Shown here one piece after another: positions 1,033 to 49,873 of a stretch of DNA of 64,000 nt. A model generated the notes under the pieces. It was given only the letters and a program-made list of their open reading frames with translations, was not told the DNA's origin and ran no database searches. The stretch is from contig NZ_VHQG01000005.1 in assembly GCF_006517435.1 (NCBI RefSeq), positions 672 to 64,671 on the forward strand, given 5' to 3'. The position numbers and the translations under genes are program-made. Origin of the DNA: Schumannella soli. Its GTDB lineage: Bacteria; Actinomycetota; Actinomycetes; Actinomycetales; Microbacteriaceae. The first letter of the stretch is position 1. Each line of letters begins with the position of its first letter.

Positions 1033-2978
1033 TGAGCACGACCCCCGCCCGCGGCGAGACCCGCCGCATGACCGTCAGCCAGGCGCTCCTCGAGTTCCTG
1101 GCCAACCAGTGGACCGTCGACGTCGACGCCGACGGCACCGAGATCCGCGAGCGCACCATCCCCGCCGTCTTCGGCATCTTCGGTCACGGCAACGTCGCCG
1201 GAATCGGCCAGGCGCTCAAGCAGCTCAACGTCGAGCAGCCCGACCTGCTGCCCTACCTGCAGGCGCGCAACGAGCAGGCCATGGTGCACCAGAGCGTCGG
1301 CTACGCCCGCATCCACCGCCGTCGCGGCACCTACGCGAGCGCCGCGAGCGTCGGCCCGGGGGCCGCGAACCTGCTCACCGGCGCGGCCCTCGCCACGACG
1401 AACCGGATGCCCGCCCTGCTGCTGCCCAGCGACACCTTCGCGACCCGCGTCGCCGACCCGGTGCTGCAGCAGATCGAGGCGCCGCACGACACGAGCATCA
1501 CGGTCAACGACGCCTTCCGTCCGCTGTCGCGCTTCTTCGACCGCGTCGACCGCCCCGAGAAGCTGTTCTCGATCGCGCTGCAGGCGATCCGCGTGCTGAC
1601 CGACCCGGTCGAGACGGGCGCCGTCACGATCGCCCTGCCGGAGGACGTGCAGGCCGAAGAGCTCGACGTGCCCGTCGAGTTCCTGCAGCCGCGCGAGTGG
1701 CACATCCGCCGCCCGCTGCCCGAGGCGGGTCCGCTCGCCCGCGCCGTGGCCGCGATCAAGGCCGCGAAGAACCCGATCGTCGTCGCCGGCGGCGGCGTCA
1801 TCTACTCCGGAGCCGAGCAGGCGCTGCAGGCGCTCGTCGAGGCCACCGGCATCCCCGTCGGCACCTCGCAGGCCGGCGGCGGCGTGCTGAACTGGGATCA
1901 CCCGCAGTACCTGGGCGGAATCGGCGCGACCGGCACCGCCGTCGCGAACCGCATCGCGGCGACCGCCGACGTCGTGATCGGCATCGGAACGCGCTACAGC
2001 GACTTCACCACCGCGAGCCGCACCGTGTTCCAGAACCCCGACGTCGTGTTCGTGAACGTCAACGTCGCGAGCTTCGACGCCTACAAGCACGGCTCGCAGC
2101 TGCCCATCATCGCCGACGCCCGCGAGGCGATCCGCGCCCTGCAGACCGAGCTCGCCGACTACACCGTGCCCGCCGAGCTCGCCGAGCGCATCCAGACCGA
2201 GAACGCCCAGTGGGATGCGGCCGTCGACGCGGCCTTCCAGCCGAGCGGACTCGACCTGCCCGGCCAGCCCGAGATCATCGGCGCCGTGCAGAAGGCCTCC
2301 GACCCGCAGGACGTCATCGTGCAGGCCGCCGGCTCGCTGCCGGGCGACCTGCACAAGCTGTGGCGCGTGCGCGATCCGCTCGGCTACCACGTCGAGTACG
2401 CCTTCTCGTGCATGGGCTACGAGATCGCGGGCGGGCTCGGCGTCAAGCGCGGCGCCCTCGCCGCGGGCGAGGATCGCGACGTGATCGTCATGGTCGGCGA
2501 CGGCTCGTACCTGATGCTGCACACCGAGCTCGTGACCGCGGTCGCCGAGGGCATCAAGATCATCGTCGTGCTCATCCAGAACCACGGCTACGCCTCGATC
2601 GGCCACCTCTCGGAGACCGTCGGGTCCGAGCGCTTCGGCACCTGGTACCGCGAGTACGACCCGGCGACGCGCAACTTCCAGGGCGAGCAGATCCTGCCCG
2701 TCGACCTGGCGATGAACGCGCGCAGCTACGGCGTCGACACGATCGAGATCGAGCCGGGCGCGGATGCGATCGAGAAGCTCGGCGAGGCCCTCGCCGTCGC
2801 CAAGGCGAGCGAGCGCTCGACCTTCATCCACATCAACTCGAACCCGCTCATCTACGCGCCCGACGGCGAGGGCTGGTGGGATGTGCCGGTCGCCGAGGTC
2901 TCGACGATCGAGAGCACCCAGCAGGCGCGCGCCGAGTACGTCGAGCAGGTGAAGGCGCAGCGGCCGCTGCTCGGCTGA
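1032..2978 (+). CDS. iolD: 3D-(3,5/4)-trihydroxycyclohexane-1,2-dione hydrolase
   Basis: ThDP-dependent ring-opening enzyme of myo-inositol catabolism; it acts after IolE and before IolB. The 648 aa protein has the three domains of the acetolactate-synthase superfamily. The N-terminal pyrimidine-binding domain holds the activating Glu (ARNEQAMVHQ, near residue 85). The C-terminal PP-binding domain shows VGDGSYLMLHTEL, ending in the metal-binding Asn-His (IQNHGYASIG). The length matches IolD (about 640) rather than acetolactate synthase. Its start overlaps the iolB stop by one base. No other operon gene follows on this strand within 100 bp, so it probably ends the iolB-iolD transcript. Confidence 0.95.
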   Translation: MSTTPARGETRRMTVSQALLEFLANQWTVDVDADGTEIRERTIPAVFGIFGHGNVAGIGQALKQLNVEQPDLLPYLQARNEQAMVHQSVGYARIHRRRGTYASAASVGPGAANLLTGAALATTNRMPALLLPSDTFATRVADPVLQQIEAPHDTSITVNDAFRPLSRFFDRVDRPEKLFSIALQAIRVLTDPVETGAVTIALPEDVQAEELDVPVEFLQPREWHIRRPLPEAGPLARAVAAIKAAKNPIVVAGGGVIYSGAEQALQALVEATGIPVGTSQAGGGVLNWDHPQYLGGIGATGTAVANRIAATADVVIGIGTRYSDFTTASRTVFQNPDVVFVNVNVASFDAYKHGSQLPIIADAREAIRALQTELADYTVPAELAERIQTENAQWDAAVDAAFQPSGLDLPGQPEIIGAVQKASDPQDVIVQAAGSLPGDLHKLWRVRDPLGYHVEYAFSCMGYEIAGGLGVKRGALAAGEDRDVIVMVGDGSYLMLHTELVTAVAEGIKIIVVLIQNHGYASIGHLSETVGSERFGTWYREYDPATRNFQGEQILPVDLAMNARSYGVDTIEIEPGADAIEKLGEALAVAKASERSTFIHINSNPLIYAPDGEGWWDVPVAEVSTIESTQQARAEYVEQVKAQRPLLG

Positions 2979-3826: not shown

Positions 3827-4576
3827 GACCAGCGTCACCTCGAAGGAGTAGAGGTCGGGACGGTACGAGTGGTGGCCGAACTCGATCACGCGGGCGTTGT
3901 CGTCGTAGGCGGTGCGGTCCATCGTGAGCACAGCCGAGTGCTTCTCGAGCTCGAGCAGCTTCGACTCCTCGTTGGTCGCCGAGCGGGCGCCGATGCGCTG
4001 CCGGGCGACGCGGATCGACACCCCGCGCCCGCGCAGCAGCTGGTACATGCCGTGCTCGGTGAGCTGCTCGGCGGTGATGTCGGCGAAGTCCTCGGGCAGG
4101 TAGTTCTCGAGCAACGCGAGCGGCACGTCATCGGCGAGCCGCACGCGGCGCACGTGCAGCACATCGGCGCCCTCGGCGATCGCGAGACGCTCGGCGATCG
4201 CGGCGTCTGCGGGCACGACCTCGTGCAGCAGCAGCTGGGTGCGCGGAGTGCGTGACGAGGCGGCGAGATCCTCGAACAGGCTCGTCAGCTCGACCTTGCG
4301 GGTCACCCCGCCGTGCACGACCTGCGTGCCGATGCCGCGGCGTCGCACCAGCAGCCCCTTGTCGACGAGCTCCTGGATGGCACGCCGAATCGTCGGACGC
4401 GACAGCCCCAGACGGCTGGCGAGAGCGATCTCGTTGTCGATGCGGGATCCGGCCGACACGGTGCCGTCGGAGATCGCGCGCTCGATGCGGCTCGCCACCT
4501 GGTAGTAGAGGGGCACGGGGCCCGAGCGGTCCATGTCGAGGAACAGGGATGCCGGGAGGGTCGGGTCTGCGTCCAT
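3818..4576 (-). CDS. GntR-family regulator, HutC/UTRA type, probable inositol repressor
   Basis: DNA-binding regulator of 252 aa. Residues 18-90 form a GntR winged helix-turn-helix (IALASRLGLSRPTIRRAIQE as recognition region, then KGLLVRRRGIGTQVV). Residues 100-250 form a UTRA effector domain that would bind a small sugar-like ligand. The gene sits between iolBD and the ABC importer. Its own promoter region carries the inverted repeat TTTGT-N4-ACATT at 4605-4618, 29 bp before the start; the same motif lies in front of the importer and of the second inositol operon. I infer that it autoregulates and represses inositol genes. The effector could be an inositol intermediate, but this is not shown by sequence. 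Confidence 0.88.
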   Translation of the reverse strand: MDADPTLPASLFLDMDRSGPVPLYYQVASRIERAISDGTVSAGSRIDNEIALASRLGLSRPTIRRAIQELVDKGLLVRRRGIGTQVVHGGVTRKVELTSLFEDLAASSRTPRTQLLLHEVVPADAAIAERLAIAEGADVLHVRRVRLADDVPLALLENYLPEDFADITAEQLTEHGMYQLLRGRGVSIRVARQRIGARSATNEESKLLELEKHSAVLTMDRTAYDDNARVIEFGHHSYRPDLYSFEVTLVDR

Positions 4577-4604
4577 GCAGCGGCCACCTCACCTTCGTCG
4601 TGAC

Positions 4605-44378: not shown

Positions 44379-45938
44379 CTACACGTCGCTCGTGACGAGG
44401 TCGTCGCCGACGCGCTGCGCGCTCGACGCACCCGGCTCGGTCGAGCCCGCGACCACGGGCGCCGCGATCGGGTACGCCCGCCATGACCCCGACGCGGGGC
44501 GTGCCCCGGCGAGGTGCTCGGCGATGCGGACGACCTGGTGGCTGTAGCCGAACTCGTTGTCGTACCAGACGTAGACGACGACGTGGCGTCCGTCGGCGAC
44601 CGTGGCGAGGCCGTCGACGATGCCGGTCTGGCGGGCGCCGAGGAAGTCGGTCGACACCGCATCCGGGCTCTCGACGTAGCCGACCTGGCGGCGCAGCGGC
44701 GAGCGCACCGAGGTGACGCGGATGAGGTCGTTGACCTCGGCCGCCGTCACCGCGCGCGACAGCTCGAGGTTGAGGATCGCGATCGACACGTCGGGGGTGG
44801 GCACGCGGATGGCGTTGCCGGTCAGCTTGCCCTCGAACTTCGGCAGCGCCTTCGCCACCGCACGAGCGGCGCCGGTCTCGGTGATGACCATGTTGAGCCC
44901 GGCGGCGCGGCCGCGGCGGTCGGCCTTGTGGAAGTTGTCGATGAGGTTCTGGTCGTTGGTGAAGGAGTGGATCGTCTCGATGTGTCCGCGCTCGACGCCG
45001 AGGGCGTCATCCAGCACCTTGAGCACCGGCGTGACCGCGTTGGTGGTGCACGAGGCGGCCGACACGATCTGCGCATCCCCGATGCTGTCGCTGTTGACGC
45101 CGTGCACGATGTTCGGCAGGTCGCCCTTGCCCGGTGCGGTCAGCAGAACGCGGGCGATGCCGGGGCGCTCGAGGTGCTGGCGCAGGCCCGCCTCGTCGCG
45201 CCAGCGGCCCGTGTTGTCGATGAGGATCGCATCCGAGATTCCGTGGGCGCTGTAGTCGACCTCGCGCGGGTCGTCGGCGTAGATGACCTGGATGAGCGTG
45301 CCGTTCGCGAGGATCGTCTCCGCGTCGTGGTCGACCGAGATCGTGCCCTCGAAGGGGCCGTGGATGCTGTCGCGGCGCAGCAGGCTGGCGCGCTTGACGA
45401 GGTCGTCGTCCGAGCCGCGGCGCACGACGATCGCGCGCAGGCGGGGCCCGCCGCCGCTGCCGGCGTGGTTGATGAGGATGCGGGCCACGAGACGCCCGAT
45501 GCGTCCGAAGCCGTAGAGCACGACATCCCGCCCGGCGGTCTGCGCGACGATCTCGTCGGCGCTCGGGGCGGGCAGCTCGCGCGCGAGGAACTCGGCGAGC
45601 GTCAGCTCGGGCTCGGCCGTGCGCGCCTCGCGGTGGTCGGCGAGCAGGGCGGCGAGGTCGACCGAGAGCCCGCGGGTTCCGGCGTCGAGCAGCGCCTCGG
45701 CCAGCTCGACGGTCTTGTCGAGCGGGATCTGGAACGCGTCGGCGTGCCGCCCGAAGCGGTGCGCCTTGACGACGTCGATCGCCGAGAGATTGATCAGCCG
45801 GCGCCCGTAGAGCGAGGTGACGACGCCGCGCTCGCGGTGCAGTCGGCCGAGCAGGGGGATGAGGCGCTCGGCCTGCGACTGGGTGTCGGCCCAGGAGAGG
45901 AGGGCCTCGTGACGGGCGGAGGGAGTGGATCGCTGCAT
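44379..45938 (-). CDS. Glyceraldehyde-3-phosphate dehydrogenase, long GapB-like type
   Basis: Protein of 519 aa, much longer than classical GAPDH (about 335). Residues 1-125 are an extra helical domain. The Rossmann motif LYGFGRIGRLVARIL starts near residue 140; the catalytic Cys is in SAASCTTNAVTPVL, and the catalytic His in HSFTNDQNLID; WYDNEFGYS is at the C-terminus. The long form is typical of the second GAPDH (GapB) of corynebacteria and relatives, linked to gluconeogenic flow. The start is ATG 45938; the frame is open upstream without support. It is monocistronic and divergent from the FurA-like gene. Confidence 0.9.
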   Translation of the reverse strand: MQRSTPSARHEALLSWADTQSQAERLIPLLGRLHRERGVVTSLYGRRLINLSAIDVVKAHRFGRHADAFQIPLDKTVELAEALLDAGTRGLSVDLAALLADHREARTAEPELTLAEFLARELPAPSADEIVAQTAGRDVVLYGFGRIGRLVARILINHAGSGGGPRLRAIVVRRGSDDDLVKRASLLRRDSIHGPFEGTISVDHDAETILANGTLIQVIYADDPREVDYSAHGISDAILIDNTGRWRDEAGLRQHLERPGIARVLLTAPGKGDLPNIVHGVNSDSIGDAQIVSAASCTTNAVTPVLKVLDDALGVERGHIETIHSFTNDQNLIDNFHKADRRGRAAGLNMVITETGAARAVAKALPKFEGKLTGNAIRVPTPDVSIAILNLELSRAVTAAEVNDLIRVTSVRSPLRRQVGYVESPDAVSTDFLGARQTGIVDGLATVADGRHVVVYVWYDNEFGYSHQVVRIAEHLAGARPASGSWRAYPIAAPVVAGSTEPGASSAQRVGDDLVTSDV

Positions 45939-46160
45939 GACGGTGGGTACGCCTTCGGGGTCGGTGGGATCGTGTCCCGGCCCCGCGGTGGCGACGCGGC
46001 CGTGTACGTCTATTCTGCCGCGCGCATCCGCTCGAGCCAACCCGACGGCGCTCGATCGCCGAGGGGCGAGCGGCCGGACAGGGGAGCGCGCATCCCCTCG
46101 CCTGGATGTTCACCCGACGTTATTCGTAATCACTCAAAACACCCGACTAGGGTCGACGGC

Positions 46161-46601
46161 ATGGACGACCTCGCAGTGCGCACCGAGCCGGCGGCCGACG
46201 CCGACGCGGCCGCGCTGCGATCGGCCGGGCTCAAGGTCACCCGCGGCCGGCTGGCCGCTCTGCGCCTGCTTCAGCGGATGCCGCACAGCGACGCCGAGAC
46301 TATCCACCGCCACGCGGTGACCGACGAGCCCACCCTCTCGGTGCAGTCGATGCACAACGTGCTGACCGACCTCACCAGGGCCGGACTGCTGCGTCGCATC
46401 GAACCGGAGCGCTCCGCCGCTCTGTACGAGCGCCGCGTGGGCGACAACCACCACCACGTGGTCTGTCGCGCGTGCGGCAAGGTCGCCGACGTCGACTGCG
46501 TCGTCGGGCACGCCCCGTGCCTGGCGCCCAGCGACGCCGGAGGCTTCGCCATCGACACCGCCGAGGTCGTCTTCTGGGGGCTGTGCGCCGACTGCCGGTG
46601 A
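46161..46601 (+). CDS. Fur-family peroxide/iron regulator (FurA/CatR-like)
   Basis: Regulator of 146 aa: N-terminal winged helix (AALRSAGLKVTRGRLAALRL to LTDLTRAGLLRRIE) and C-terminal dimerisation domain with the regulatory metal site GDNHHHVVCRACG and structural-zinc pairs CRAC and CADC. It lies 120 bp upstream of catalase on the same strand, the usual furA-cat arrangement, so it probably represses the catalase and itself until oxidised by peroxide. Just before it, around 46118-46140, is an AT-rich stretch (TTATTCGTAATCACTCAAAA) that is the best candidate for its binding site and promoter. Confidence 0.92.
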   Translation: MDDLAVRTEPAADADAAALRSAGLKVTRGRLAALRLLQRMPHSDAETIHRHAVTDEPTLSVQSMHNVLTDLTRAGLLRRIEPERSAALYERRVGDNHHHVVCRACGKVADVDCVVGHAPCLAPSDAGGFAIDTAEVVFWGLCADCR

Positions 46602-46721
46602 CGGGGCGTGCCGGTGACTCCGCACCGGTTCGCGCCGCGATCGACGACGGGATGCGCATCCCCACCGCCCCTGCCGGGTTCGGCCGGCAGGAGCTCGCTC
46701 CGAATGAAACGAGAGACACAC

Positions 46722-48236
46722 GTGACCGACGCGAAGACCACGACCAACTCCGGCGCCCCCGTCGCCAGCGACCAGCACTCCCAGTCCGTCGGGCCGGACG
46801 GCGCGATCGCGCTGACCGACCACTACCTGGTCGAGAAGCTCGCCCAGTTCAACCGCGAGCGCGTGCCCGAGCGCGTCGTGCACGCCAAGGGCGGCGGCGC
46901 CTTCGGCTCGCTGGTCGTGACGCACGACGTCTCGCAGTACACGCACGCGGCGCTGTTCCAGCCGGATGTCGAGACCGAGCTGCTCATCCGCTTCTCCACC
47001 GTCGCCGGCGAGCAGGGCAGCCCCGACACGTGGCGCGACCCGCGCGGCTTCGCGGTGAAGTTCTACACGAGCGAGGGCAACTACGACCTCGTCGGCAACA
47101 ACACGCCCGTCTTCTTCATCAAGGACGGCATCAAGTTCCCCGACTTCATCCGCTCGCAGAAGCGCCTGCCCGGCAGCCACCTGCGCGACAACGACATGCA
47201 GTGGGACTTCTGGACGCTGCAGCCCGAGAGCGCGCACCAGGTCACCTGGCTGATGGGCGACCGCGGACTGCCGAAGAGCTGGCGCCACATGGACGGCTTC
47301 GGCTCGCACACCTACCAGTGGATCAACGCCGCCGGCGAGCGCTTCTGGGTCAAGTACCACTTCCGCACGAAGCAGGGCAACGAGTTCCTGCCGCAGGACG
47401 AGGCCGACCGTCTCGCCGGCTCGGACGCCGACCTGCACATCCGCGACCTCTACGACGCGATCGAGAACGGCGACTTCCCGCAGTGGGATCTCAGCGTGCA
47501 GGTCATGCCCTACGACGAGGCCGCCGGCTACCGCTTCAACCCCTTCGACCTCACGAAGGTGTGGCCCAAGAGCGACTACCCGCTCATCCCGGTCGGCACG
47601 GTCACGCTGAACCGCAACCCCGAGAACTACTTCGCCGAGATCGAGCAGGCCGCCTTCGCGCCGTCGAACTTCGTTCCCGGCATCGCGGCCAGCCCCGACA
47701 AGATGCTGCAGGCCCGCATCTTCAGCTACGCGGATGCGCACCGCTACCGCGTCGGCACCAACCACGCGCAGCTGCCGGTCAACGCCCCGAAGAACGAGGC
47801 GCACAGCTACTCGAAGGACGGCGCCTCGCGCTTCGGCTTCGAGCACCCGAGTGTGCCGGTGTACGCGCCGAACTCCTTCGGCGGACCGCACGCCGACCCG
47901 GCCGCCCACGGCGACGACCGCGGCTGGCAGAACGACGGCGAGCTCGTGCGCTCGGCCGCGACCCTGCACGCCGAGGACGATGACTTCGGCCAGGCCCGCA
48001 CCCTCGTCAACGAGGTGCTGGATGACGCGGCCCGCGAGCGCCTCGTCGGCAACATCGCCGGGCACGTCGGCAAGACGACGATCCCCGACATCCGCGAGCG
48101 CGCCCTGCAGTACTGGGACAACGTGGATGCCGAGCTCGGCCGCCGCGTGCGCGAGTCGGTCGCCCCGATCGAGAACCCGCGCGAGACCCTCGTGCCGGCT
48201 CCGGTGCCGACCCCGGCGGGTCCCGCCCAGGGCTGA
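46722..48236 (+). CDS. katA: Monofunctional haem catalase
   Basis: Decomposes hydrogen peroxide in the cytosol. The 504 aa protein has the distal His in [12 protein letters not shown], the distal Asn in [11 protein letters not shown], and the proximal haem-ligand Tyr in [14 protein letters not shown]. The length fits small-subunit (clade 3) catalases. GTG 46722 is preferred since GAGAG lies 6 bp upstream and the protein then begins [14 protein letters not shown] 46704 would add six residues. It is downstream of, and probably controlled by, the Fur-family gene. A structured intergenic region follows instead of a simple terminator. Confidence 0.94.
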
Positions 48237-48562: not shown

Positions 48563-49180
48563 TCAAGCGCCGAGCGGACGCGGGGTGCGCGGGGGAGCGG
48601 CGGCGAGCACGTGGTCGGCGAGGCCGTAGTCGCGGGCGGCGCTCGCCGTGAAGACGCGGTCGTGGTCGGTGTCGGCGCGCAGCGTCTCGACGGTCTGGCC
48701 CGTGTGGTCGGCCAGGATCTGCTCCATCTCCCCGCGCTGGCGCACCACCTCATCCGCCGCCAGGATCAGGTCGGGGATCGCCCCGCGGCCCTGCGCCGCC
48801 GGCTGGTGCAGCACGACCCGCGCGTGCGGCAGCACCGCCCGCTTTCCCGCCGCGCCCGCCGCGAGCAGCGCTGCGCCCACCCCGACCGCCTGGCCCACGC
48901 AGGTCGTCGCGACATCCGGCTGGATGAAGCGCATCGTGTCGTAGATCGCGAGCATCGCGCTCGGGTCGCCGCCTTCGCAGTTGATGTAGAGCTGGATGTC
49001 GGTGTCGGGGCTGTCGGAAGCGAGGTGCAGCAGCTGCGCGATGAGCGCGTTCGCGACGCCCGCGTCGATGCCGGTGCCGAGGTAGATGATGCGCTCGGTG
49101 AGCAGGTGCGAGTAGACATCCATGATGCGGTCGCCGCGGGAATCCCGGGCGATGACGTTGGGGATCGTGTAGGTGCTCAT
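48563..49180 (-). CDS. ClpP-family subunit lacking the catalytic serine (ClpR-like)
   Basis: Protein of 205 aa of the ClpP protease fold. The usual GQAASMGA nucleophile motif reads GQAVGVGA, so the catalytic Ser is Gly100; the His (LHQP, His125) and the Asp (DTDHDR, Asp174) are kept. It should therefore be inactive as a peptidase and would act in a mixed ring with an active partner. That partner is the gene directly upstream (49177-49803), overlapping by 4 bp. The C-terminus ends in a Pro/Arg-rich tail (PPRTPRPLGA). Cyanobacterial and plastid ClpR subunits give a precedent for serine-less members. Confidence 0.9.
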   Translation of the reverse strand: MSTYTIPNVIARDSRGDRIMDVYSHLLTERIIYLGTGIDAGVANALIAQLLHLASDSPDTDIQLYINCEGGDPSAMLAIYDTMRFIQPDVATTCVGQAVGVGAALLAAGAAGKRAVLPHARVVLHQPAAQGRGAIPDLILAADEVVRQRGEMEQILADHTGQTVETLRADTDHDRVFTASAARDYGLADHVLAAAPPRTPRPLGA

Positions 49181-49803
49181 CGGGTGACCTCCGCGCGGAA
49201 CCCGGTCACCGCGGCGCGGTCGCGCTCGCCCGGACGGAACTCGTCGAAGCGCGTCACGATCCGGTCGATGAAACCGTAGTCGAGCGCCTCCTGCGCCGTG
49301 TACCAGTGGTCGTGCAGCGAGTCGTCGAACACGCGCTCGCGCGGCTGGCCGGTGTCGTCGCTGATGAGTCCGAGCACGGTGTCGCGGGTGTGGCGCAGGT
49401 CGTGGGCCTGCAGCTCGACGTCGACCGCGGCGCCGCCGATGCCCGACGAGCCCTGGTGCAGCAGCACGCGGGCGTGCGGCAGGGCGCGTCGCTTGCCCTT
49501 CGTGCCGGCCGAGAGCAGGAACTGCCCCGCGCTGTAGGCGATGCCGAGCACGAGCGTCGACACGTCGTTCGGGATGGCGCGCATGACATCGCGGATCGCC
49601 AGCATCGACGGCACCGAGCCGCCGGGCGAGTGGATCCAGAGGTCGATGTCACGCGTCTCGCTCTCGGTCGCGAGGGCGATCAGCTGGGTCGCGAGCAGCG
49701 TGCCGTTGTCGTCGTCGAGCACGCCGTCGAGCACGAGCACGCGCCGCTCGTAGAGTTCGCGCCGCACGGCCTGGTCGAACACGGGGATCTTGTTCTCGGT
49801 CAT
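49177..49803 (-). CDS. ClpP-family serine protease subunit
   Basis: Proteolytic subunit of 208 aa of a Clp protease, working in the cytosol with an AAA+ unfoldase. Triad: Ser91 in GIAYSAGQFLL, His116 in LLHQGSSG, Asp165 in SLHDHW. The canonical GQAAS context is altered to GIAYS, and the sequence diverges from housekeeping ClpP1/ClpP2, so this is an accessory copy. ATG 49803 is chosen because the protein then starts just before the ClpP core; the open frame extends far upstream only as a shadow. It is the first gene of a two-gene operon with the serine-less subunit and is divergent from an aldo/keto reductase. Confidence 0.9.
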   Translation of the reverse strand: MTENKIPVFDQAVRRELYERRVLVLDGVLDDDNGTLLATQLIALATESETRDIDLWIHSPGGSVPSMLAIRDVMRAIPNDVSTLVLGIAYSAGQFLLSAGTKGKRRALPHARVLLHQGSSGIGGAAVDVELQAHDLRHTRDTVLGLISDDTGQPRERVFDDSLHDHWYTAQEALDYGFIDRIVTRFDEFRPGERDRAAVTGFRAEVTR

Positions 49804-49844: not shown

Positions 49845-49873
49845 TCTGCCGTGCGCAGATCTGCTGACAGCAG
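49845..49873. promoter_or_regulatory. Overlapping palindromes upstream of the clp operon (PopR-like box)
   Basis: TCTGCC-GTG-CGCAGA (49845-49859) is nearly the Streptomyces PopR element TTCTGCC-3N-GGCAGAA that activates accessory clpP genes. It overlaps the perfect palindromes GCAGATCTGC (49855-49864) and CTGCTG-A-CAGCAG (49861-49873). The cluster lies 42-70 bp before the clp start codon. No PopR/ClgR gene is in the window. Confidence 0.55.

Follow-up and report, generated by a model that had tools for sequence, protein, structure and literature searches.

The closest described relative of the locus studied here is the ClpP3-ClpP4/PopR system of Streptomyces, from which both the operon type and its switch are already known. 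To our knowledge, experiments on the backup function, on the binding of PopR and on ClpP1P2-dependent turnover of this regulator have been confined to Streptomyces. Our locus lies in a 64,000-nucleotide stretch of DNA (the window) from Schumannella soli, an actinobacterium of the Microbacteriaceae, and shares with the Streptomyces system orthologous genes in the same order, a double palindrome upstream and a ClgR-like activator ending in -AA. The two differ in that the PopR-like gene is unlinked from the operon here, and in that Streptomyces offers experiments whereas the system of the window is known from sequence alone. The second subunits also differ in the residue that was lost: in each of the 30 sampled Streptomycetaceae the catalytic His of the second subunit is replaced by Gly, so that Streptomyces ClpP4 is also predicted to be inactive, whereas in the window it is the nucleophilic Ser that has been lost.

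A functional precedent is provided by the housekeeping ClpP1P2 protease of M. tuberculosis and Streptomyces, where ClpP1 cuts, the ClpP2 nucleophile is dispensable and the ClpP2 docking patch is required (PMC9067928, PMC9765437). There, as proposed here, one ring cuts and the other, with a dispensable serine, docks the ATPase; but housekeeping ClpP1 and ClpP2 both keep full triads, while the docking-type subunit of the window has lost its own. ClpR of cyanobacteria, plastids and apicoplasts is likewise homologous to ClpP, has no functional triad and works together with an active ClpP; a first-pass annotation of the window had likened the pair to ClpP/ClpR. This likeness holds as an analogy only: hosts, partners and regulation differ, the nearest relatives found are actinobacterial ClpP4-type proteins (the tree did not include ClpR sequences), and the ClpP1/ClpP2 division of labour is the closer functional precedent.

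Single inactive ClpP alleles of S. coelicolor and N. asteroides were noted in 2022 (PMC9067928) and probably belong to the same second-subunit group. That paper mentions them in passing, and its main text makes no tie to the PopR operon or to a repeated, one-sided loss across the class. In our literature search, which did not extend to most subscription papers or to Viala 2000 and 2002, inactive actinobacterial ClpP alleles were named only there, and we found no description of a family-wide repeated one-sided loss or of its link to the PopR operon.

The gene pair and its genomic setting

The first-pass annotation described a two-gene operon with an ATGA overlap, and both minus-strand reading frames and the 4-nt overlap are indeed present. 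The features of the locus are as follows:

49177..49803, minus strand: first gene, ClpP3-type subunit (208 aa; S91-H116-D165 intact)
48563..49180, minus strand: second gene, ClpP4-type subunit (205 aa; Gly100 at the nucleophile position, His125 and Asp174 kept)
49177..49180, minus strand: 4-nt ATGA start/stop overlap of both genes (-4 spacing in 118 of 172 orthologous pairs)
49845..49859, no strand assigned: PopR-like operator palindrome TCTGC-N5-GCAGA, at -42 to -56 from the ClpP3-type start codon
49860..49874, no strand assigned: second, tandem PopR-like palindrome TCTGC-N5-GCAGA, at -57 to -71 from the ClpP3-type start codon
49978..50814, plus strand: aldo/keto reductase gene, divergent and beyond the operator (a neighbour only, with no shown membership in the Clp system)

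On the other side, the operon is adjoined by a Fur-family regulator gene followed by a catalase gene (46155-48236, plus strand), and further away lies a glyceraldehyde-3-phosphate dehydrogenase-like reading frame (44379-46040, minus strand) in which ~170 residues precede the NAD-binding domain.

The HMM search that had been proposed with the annotation placed both proteins in the Clp protease family (PF00574), with 173 bits for the first and 205 bits for the second, against a cut-off of 20.2. Catalytic columns were set by alignment with E. coli ClpP (triad S97/H122/D171). The first protein has S91/H116/D165 in these columns and therefore a complete triad, while the second has G100/H125/D174 and lacks the full Ser-His-Asp set of an active ClpP peptidase; residues and numbering had been given correctly for both subunits. 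The annotation had also called the GIAYSAG context of the first subunit unusual, which does not hold up, as GIAYSAG, GLACSAG and GMAASAG are all normal nucleophile motifs of its clade.

The pair had been proposed to exist in addition to a housekeeping Clp protease, and a separate clpP1-clpP2 pair was found on another contig (G000:C8:114880-116122), in adjacent genes with intact triads and with a ClpX-sized AAA+ protein encoded nearby. Two larger Clp/HSP100-type proteins are also encoded in the genome, which contains four ClpP proteins. With all four in one genome, the Gly100 subunit could act as a regulator or poison of housekeeping ClpP1P2, entering its rings to lower or redirect their activity rather than partnering the product of the first gene. 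ClpP paralogues can mix, since the ClpP-ADEP protein of S. hawaiiensis binds ClpP1 and pairs with ClpP2 (PMC12607617). Nevertheless, the dead subunit is encoded directly downstream of its active partner in nearly all recovered loci, usually in overlapping genes, and the operator marks a separate inducible unit, which makes such a role quite improbable.

Operator and PopR-like regulator

The two palindromes upstream of the operon are perfect and stand back to back, and the exact 30-bp double site occurs once in the genome. It matches the published PopR operator, TCTGCC-3N-GGCGAATCTGCC-3N-GGCAGA (PMC9775585). Across the orthologous loci, 137 of 187 upstream regions carried the palindrome with no more than a single mismatch, where shuffled sequences would give 2.2, and the eight housekeeping clpP1P2 operons of the set all lacked it; in most relatives outside Streptomyces, the double palindrome lies at an equal distance upstream. 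Scans for a sigma-70 promoter and a terminator returned no match.

In most relatives a ClgR/PopR-like helix-turn-helix gene adjoins the operon, and the great majority of these linked products end in -AA, usually -LAA, an ending that marks such regulators for ClpP1P2 in Streptomyces (PMC9775585). No PopR gene was found beside the operon within the 64-kb window. The PopR-like gene is instead located on another contig (G000:C6:768691-769047) and its product, a ClgR-like activator, carries the C-terminal -AA (VQVAA). This protein scored 84.5 bits against the ClgR model, under its cut-off of 170, as expected of a paralogue. Within the genus, all three genomes with the operon, and neither of the two without it, have the PopR-like gene, its orthologues being ~80% identical or more. 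One further PopR-like gene (L259, G013:C1:389684-389950; 73% identical) was found in an assembly that is 86% complete and in which no clpP3-clpP4 was detected.

Distribution of the pair and loss of the triad in the second subunit

We searched 99 relatives together with 395 genomes of the class and a named genome collection. The orthologous pair is scattered in Actinomycetia (Microbacterium, Agromyces, Nonomuraea, Actinomadura, Nocardia, Tsukamurella, Amycolatopsis, Nocardioides, Streptomyces, Actinoplanes and others). Its distribution is patchy in the family of the window, with the pair in ~10 of 60 sampled genomes, and about one quarter of the genomes of the class sample had a match of comparable strength (counted at E < ~2e-62). 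In the tree, the second subunits, including the Streptomyces ClpP4-type proteins, form one group apart from housekeeping ClpP2, and this grouping of the second protein identifies the adjacent pair as orthologous to clpP3-clpP4 of Streptomyces. The second window protein is nearer to that of Nonomuraea (79%) than to those of several members of its own family, which suggests horizontal transfer.

Triad loss was counted over 172 Actinomycetia pairs with a P4-type second subunit. The first-subunit triad is intact in 171 of them, the exception (L081) being a frameshifted reading. Of the second subunits, 123 have a broken triad and 47 an intact one, and 2 are truncated. At the nucleophile, Ser is replaced by Ala in Nonomuraea, Actinomadura, Nocardia, Tsukamurella and Amycolatopsis, by Gly in Microbacterium, Agromyces and the genus of the window, and by Trp, Phe or Glu in further second subunits. 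The His to Gly change of the Streptomycetaceae covers every sampled Streptomyces and Kitasatospora second subunit; His is replaced by Arg in Brevibacterium and by Ser, Thr, Asn, Asp or Gln elsewhere. Finally, Asp gave way to Asn, Ser, Arg or His in an Actinoplanes-Planomonospora group, and some lineages have lost two triad residues together. Parsimony on a tree of 144 rows, from which the triad columns had been left out, required at least 10 changes between intact and broken second subunits. About five of these are unambiguous, since they strike a different residue in a separate clade. Inactivity is thus frequent and not obligatory, given the 47 second subunits that keep a full triad.

In one family (f38: L175, L184 and L196), the motif reads GQASETAA, with Glu at the nucleophile and Ser one residue earlier. 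Such a serine, together with the His125 and Asp174 kept in the window, could speak for a second subunit that still cuts by means of a substitute nucleophile or of residues from a neighbouring subunit. We give this very little credence: in the window protein the four residues on either side of Gly100 include no Ser, Thr or Cys, and other lineages have dispensed with His or Asp, or with two residues of the triad at once.

Gly100 is common to two congeners (G003 and G004). Starting from TCN, the ancestral serine codon, a single base change yields Ala (GCN), Trp (TGG) or Phe (TTC), whereas Gly (GGN) takes two; Gly100 therefore most likely arose through an already dead Ala form. A sequencing error was rejected on both grounds, the sharing of Gly100 and the two base changes probably passing via Ala. 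The first-pass annotation had held that serine in close relatives would point to such an error or to a recent loss. The outcome is mixed, as the congeners have Gly but more distant relatives, two Microbacterium (L044, L066) and a Janibacter (L040), have Ser (P4-type gene near 4001-4600) and are nested in the Ala/Gly clade. When all dead sequences of this clade were constrained together, the log-likelihood fell by 33 (p-AU 0.04), so a single serine loss in the nearest clade is weakly rejected, and both a regain of Ser and several losses are possible for the three sequences. Altogether, the phylogeny points to a nucleophile that was lost, and perhaps regained, more than once.

The annotation further proposed that the ATGA overlap keeps the two subunits near 1:1. 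The -4 overlap is no commoner with a dead subunit (79 of 123 pairs) than with an intact one (37 of 47), and does not appear to be a special device. Frameshifts in one gene of the pair were seen in L010, L015, L081 and L084 (Tsukamurella spumae, a Streptomyces and two others); these are assembly errors or decay.

Retention of the inactive subunit and the proposed protease

The few frameshifted relatives and the patchy family distribution could mean that the operon is decaying, with the second gene on its way to a pseudogene and the serine loss meaningless. This is largely refuted and very unlikely. The dN/dS of the second gene was 0.03-0.28 in eight comparisons, well below 1 in every pair tested and similar to that of the first gene, so that the dead subunit is under purifying selection. 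Gly is conserved in both congeners. AlphaFold2 monomer models were confident (pLDDT 92 for the second protein, 89 for the first), and the second protein is predicted to adopt a normal ClpP fold, its best PDB matches being ClpP structures, among them the ClpX-bound P. aeruginosa ClpP1/ClpP2 complex and Mtb ClpP1P2.

The docking features are also preserved. Among broken second subunits, the Y62 column (E. coli numbering) is Tyr in 124 of 124 and the L114 column Leu in 124 of 124, the F82 column holds F, Y or H, and the N-terminal axial loop is present; the window protein itself has its docking Tyr65 in the Y62 column and keeps the loop. These invariant columns and the low dN/dS led us to reject the pseudogene reading. 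The partner first subunits have W or Y at 62 and mostly Leu at 82 and lack the N-terminal axial loop; the first protein of the window is likewise without this loop and without the usual docking-pocket aromatics.

We consider it likely that the operon encodes a PopR-controlled backup Clp protease, in which a cutting ClpP3-type ring is combined with a non-cutting ClpP4-type docking ring. The locus is best read as encoding a mixed active/inactive complex distinct from the housekeeping protease, and we infer the heteromer from the evidence above; in this respect the first-pass annotation stands, although it missed that the pair is a PopR-type clpP3-clpP4 operon with its operator. The ClpP3-type subunit would form the ring that cuts, and the ClpP4-type ring, unable to cut, would keep the surface and axial loop for ClpX/ClpC docking and pore gating. 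In normal cells, the housekeeping Clp protease would destroy the PopR-like activator; a block or overload of that enzyme would let the activator accumulate, bind the double palindrome and turn on the operon, which is probably stress-induced. For this species we infer assembly, ring arrangement, docking through the dead subunit, induction and degradation of the regulator by ClpP1P2. The pattern fits a ClpP1P2-like split of labour from which the superfluous site has been removed.

The two subunits could also be mixed within each ring, giving half-dead rings in place of one live and one dead ring, as in the plastid R-ring that combines active ClpP1 with inactive ClpR (PMC7966870). We regard this as unlikely, if the most serious of the alternatives, because in the heteromer known from actinobacteria ClpP1 and ClpP2 each form homoheptameric rings (PMC9067928), and the two window proteins divide axial loop and docking features in the same manner.

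The reason for keeping two ClpP types in bacteria, and the need for both rings to cut, are unsettled matters that bear on drug design. Mutation in M. tuberculosis and Streptomyces showed that one cutting ring is enough, and evolution appears to repeat that change here, with the loss always in the predicted ATPase-docking ring and never in its partner. Forms of one complex that are active, dead or possibly revived would make up a natural set for comparison, and the classical Streptomyces ClpP4 is predicted to be a non-cutting subunit. For a broader reading, we see the balance as nearly even and tilting slightly towards doubt: that the actinobacterial PopR backup protease is asymmetric as a rule, its docking ring having died repeatedly via all three triad positions, with Ser later regained in Janibacter and the two Microbacterium. 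In that case the backup protease would amount to a naturally repeated counterpart of the 'forced asymmetry' strain of M. tuberculosis made in the laboratory.

Against the reading of a cutting and a docking ring stand the full triad in 47 of 172 second subunits, the Ser of two Microbacterium and a Janibacter within the dead clade, and the family member G027, which has a PopR-like gene beside a single active ClpP with no dead partner. In this last locus (L256, G027:C13:567500-572500), the ClpP gene (1922-2455, minus strand) is divergent from the PopR-like gene and would represent an alternative, one-subunit form of the backup protease. A third, distant ClpP of another type (35% identity) is encoded in an operon-less congener (L258, G001:C74; 1764-2291, minus strand), with an intact triad and the motif GPAFSMAAW.
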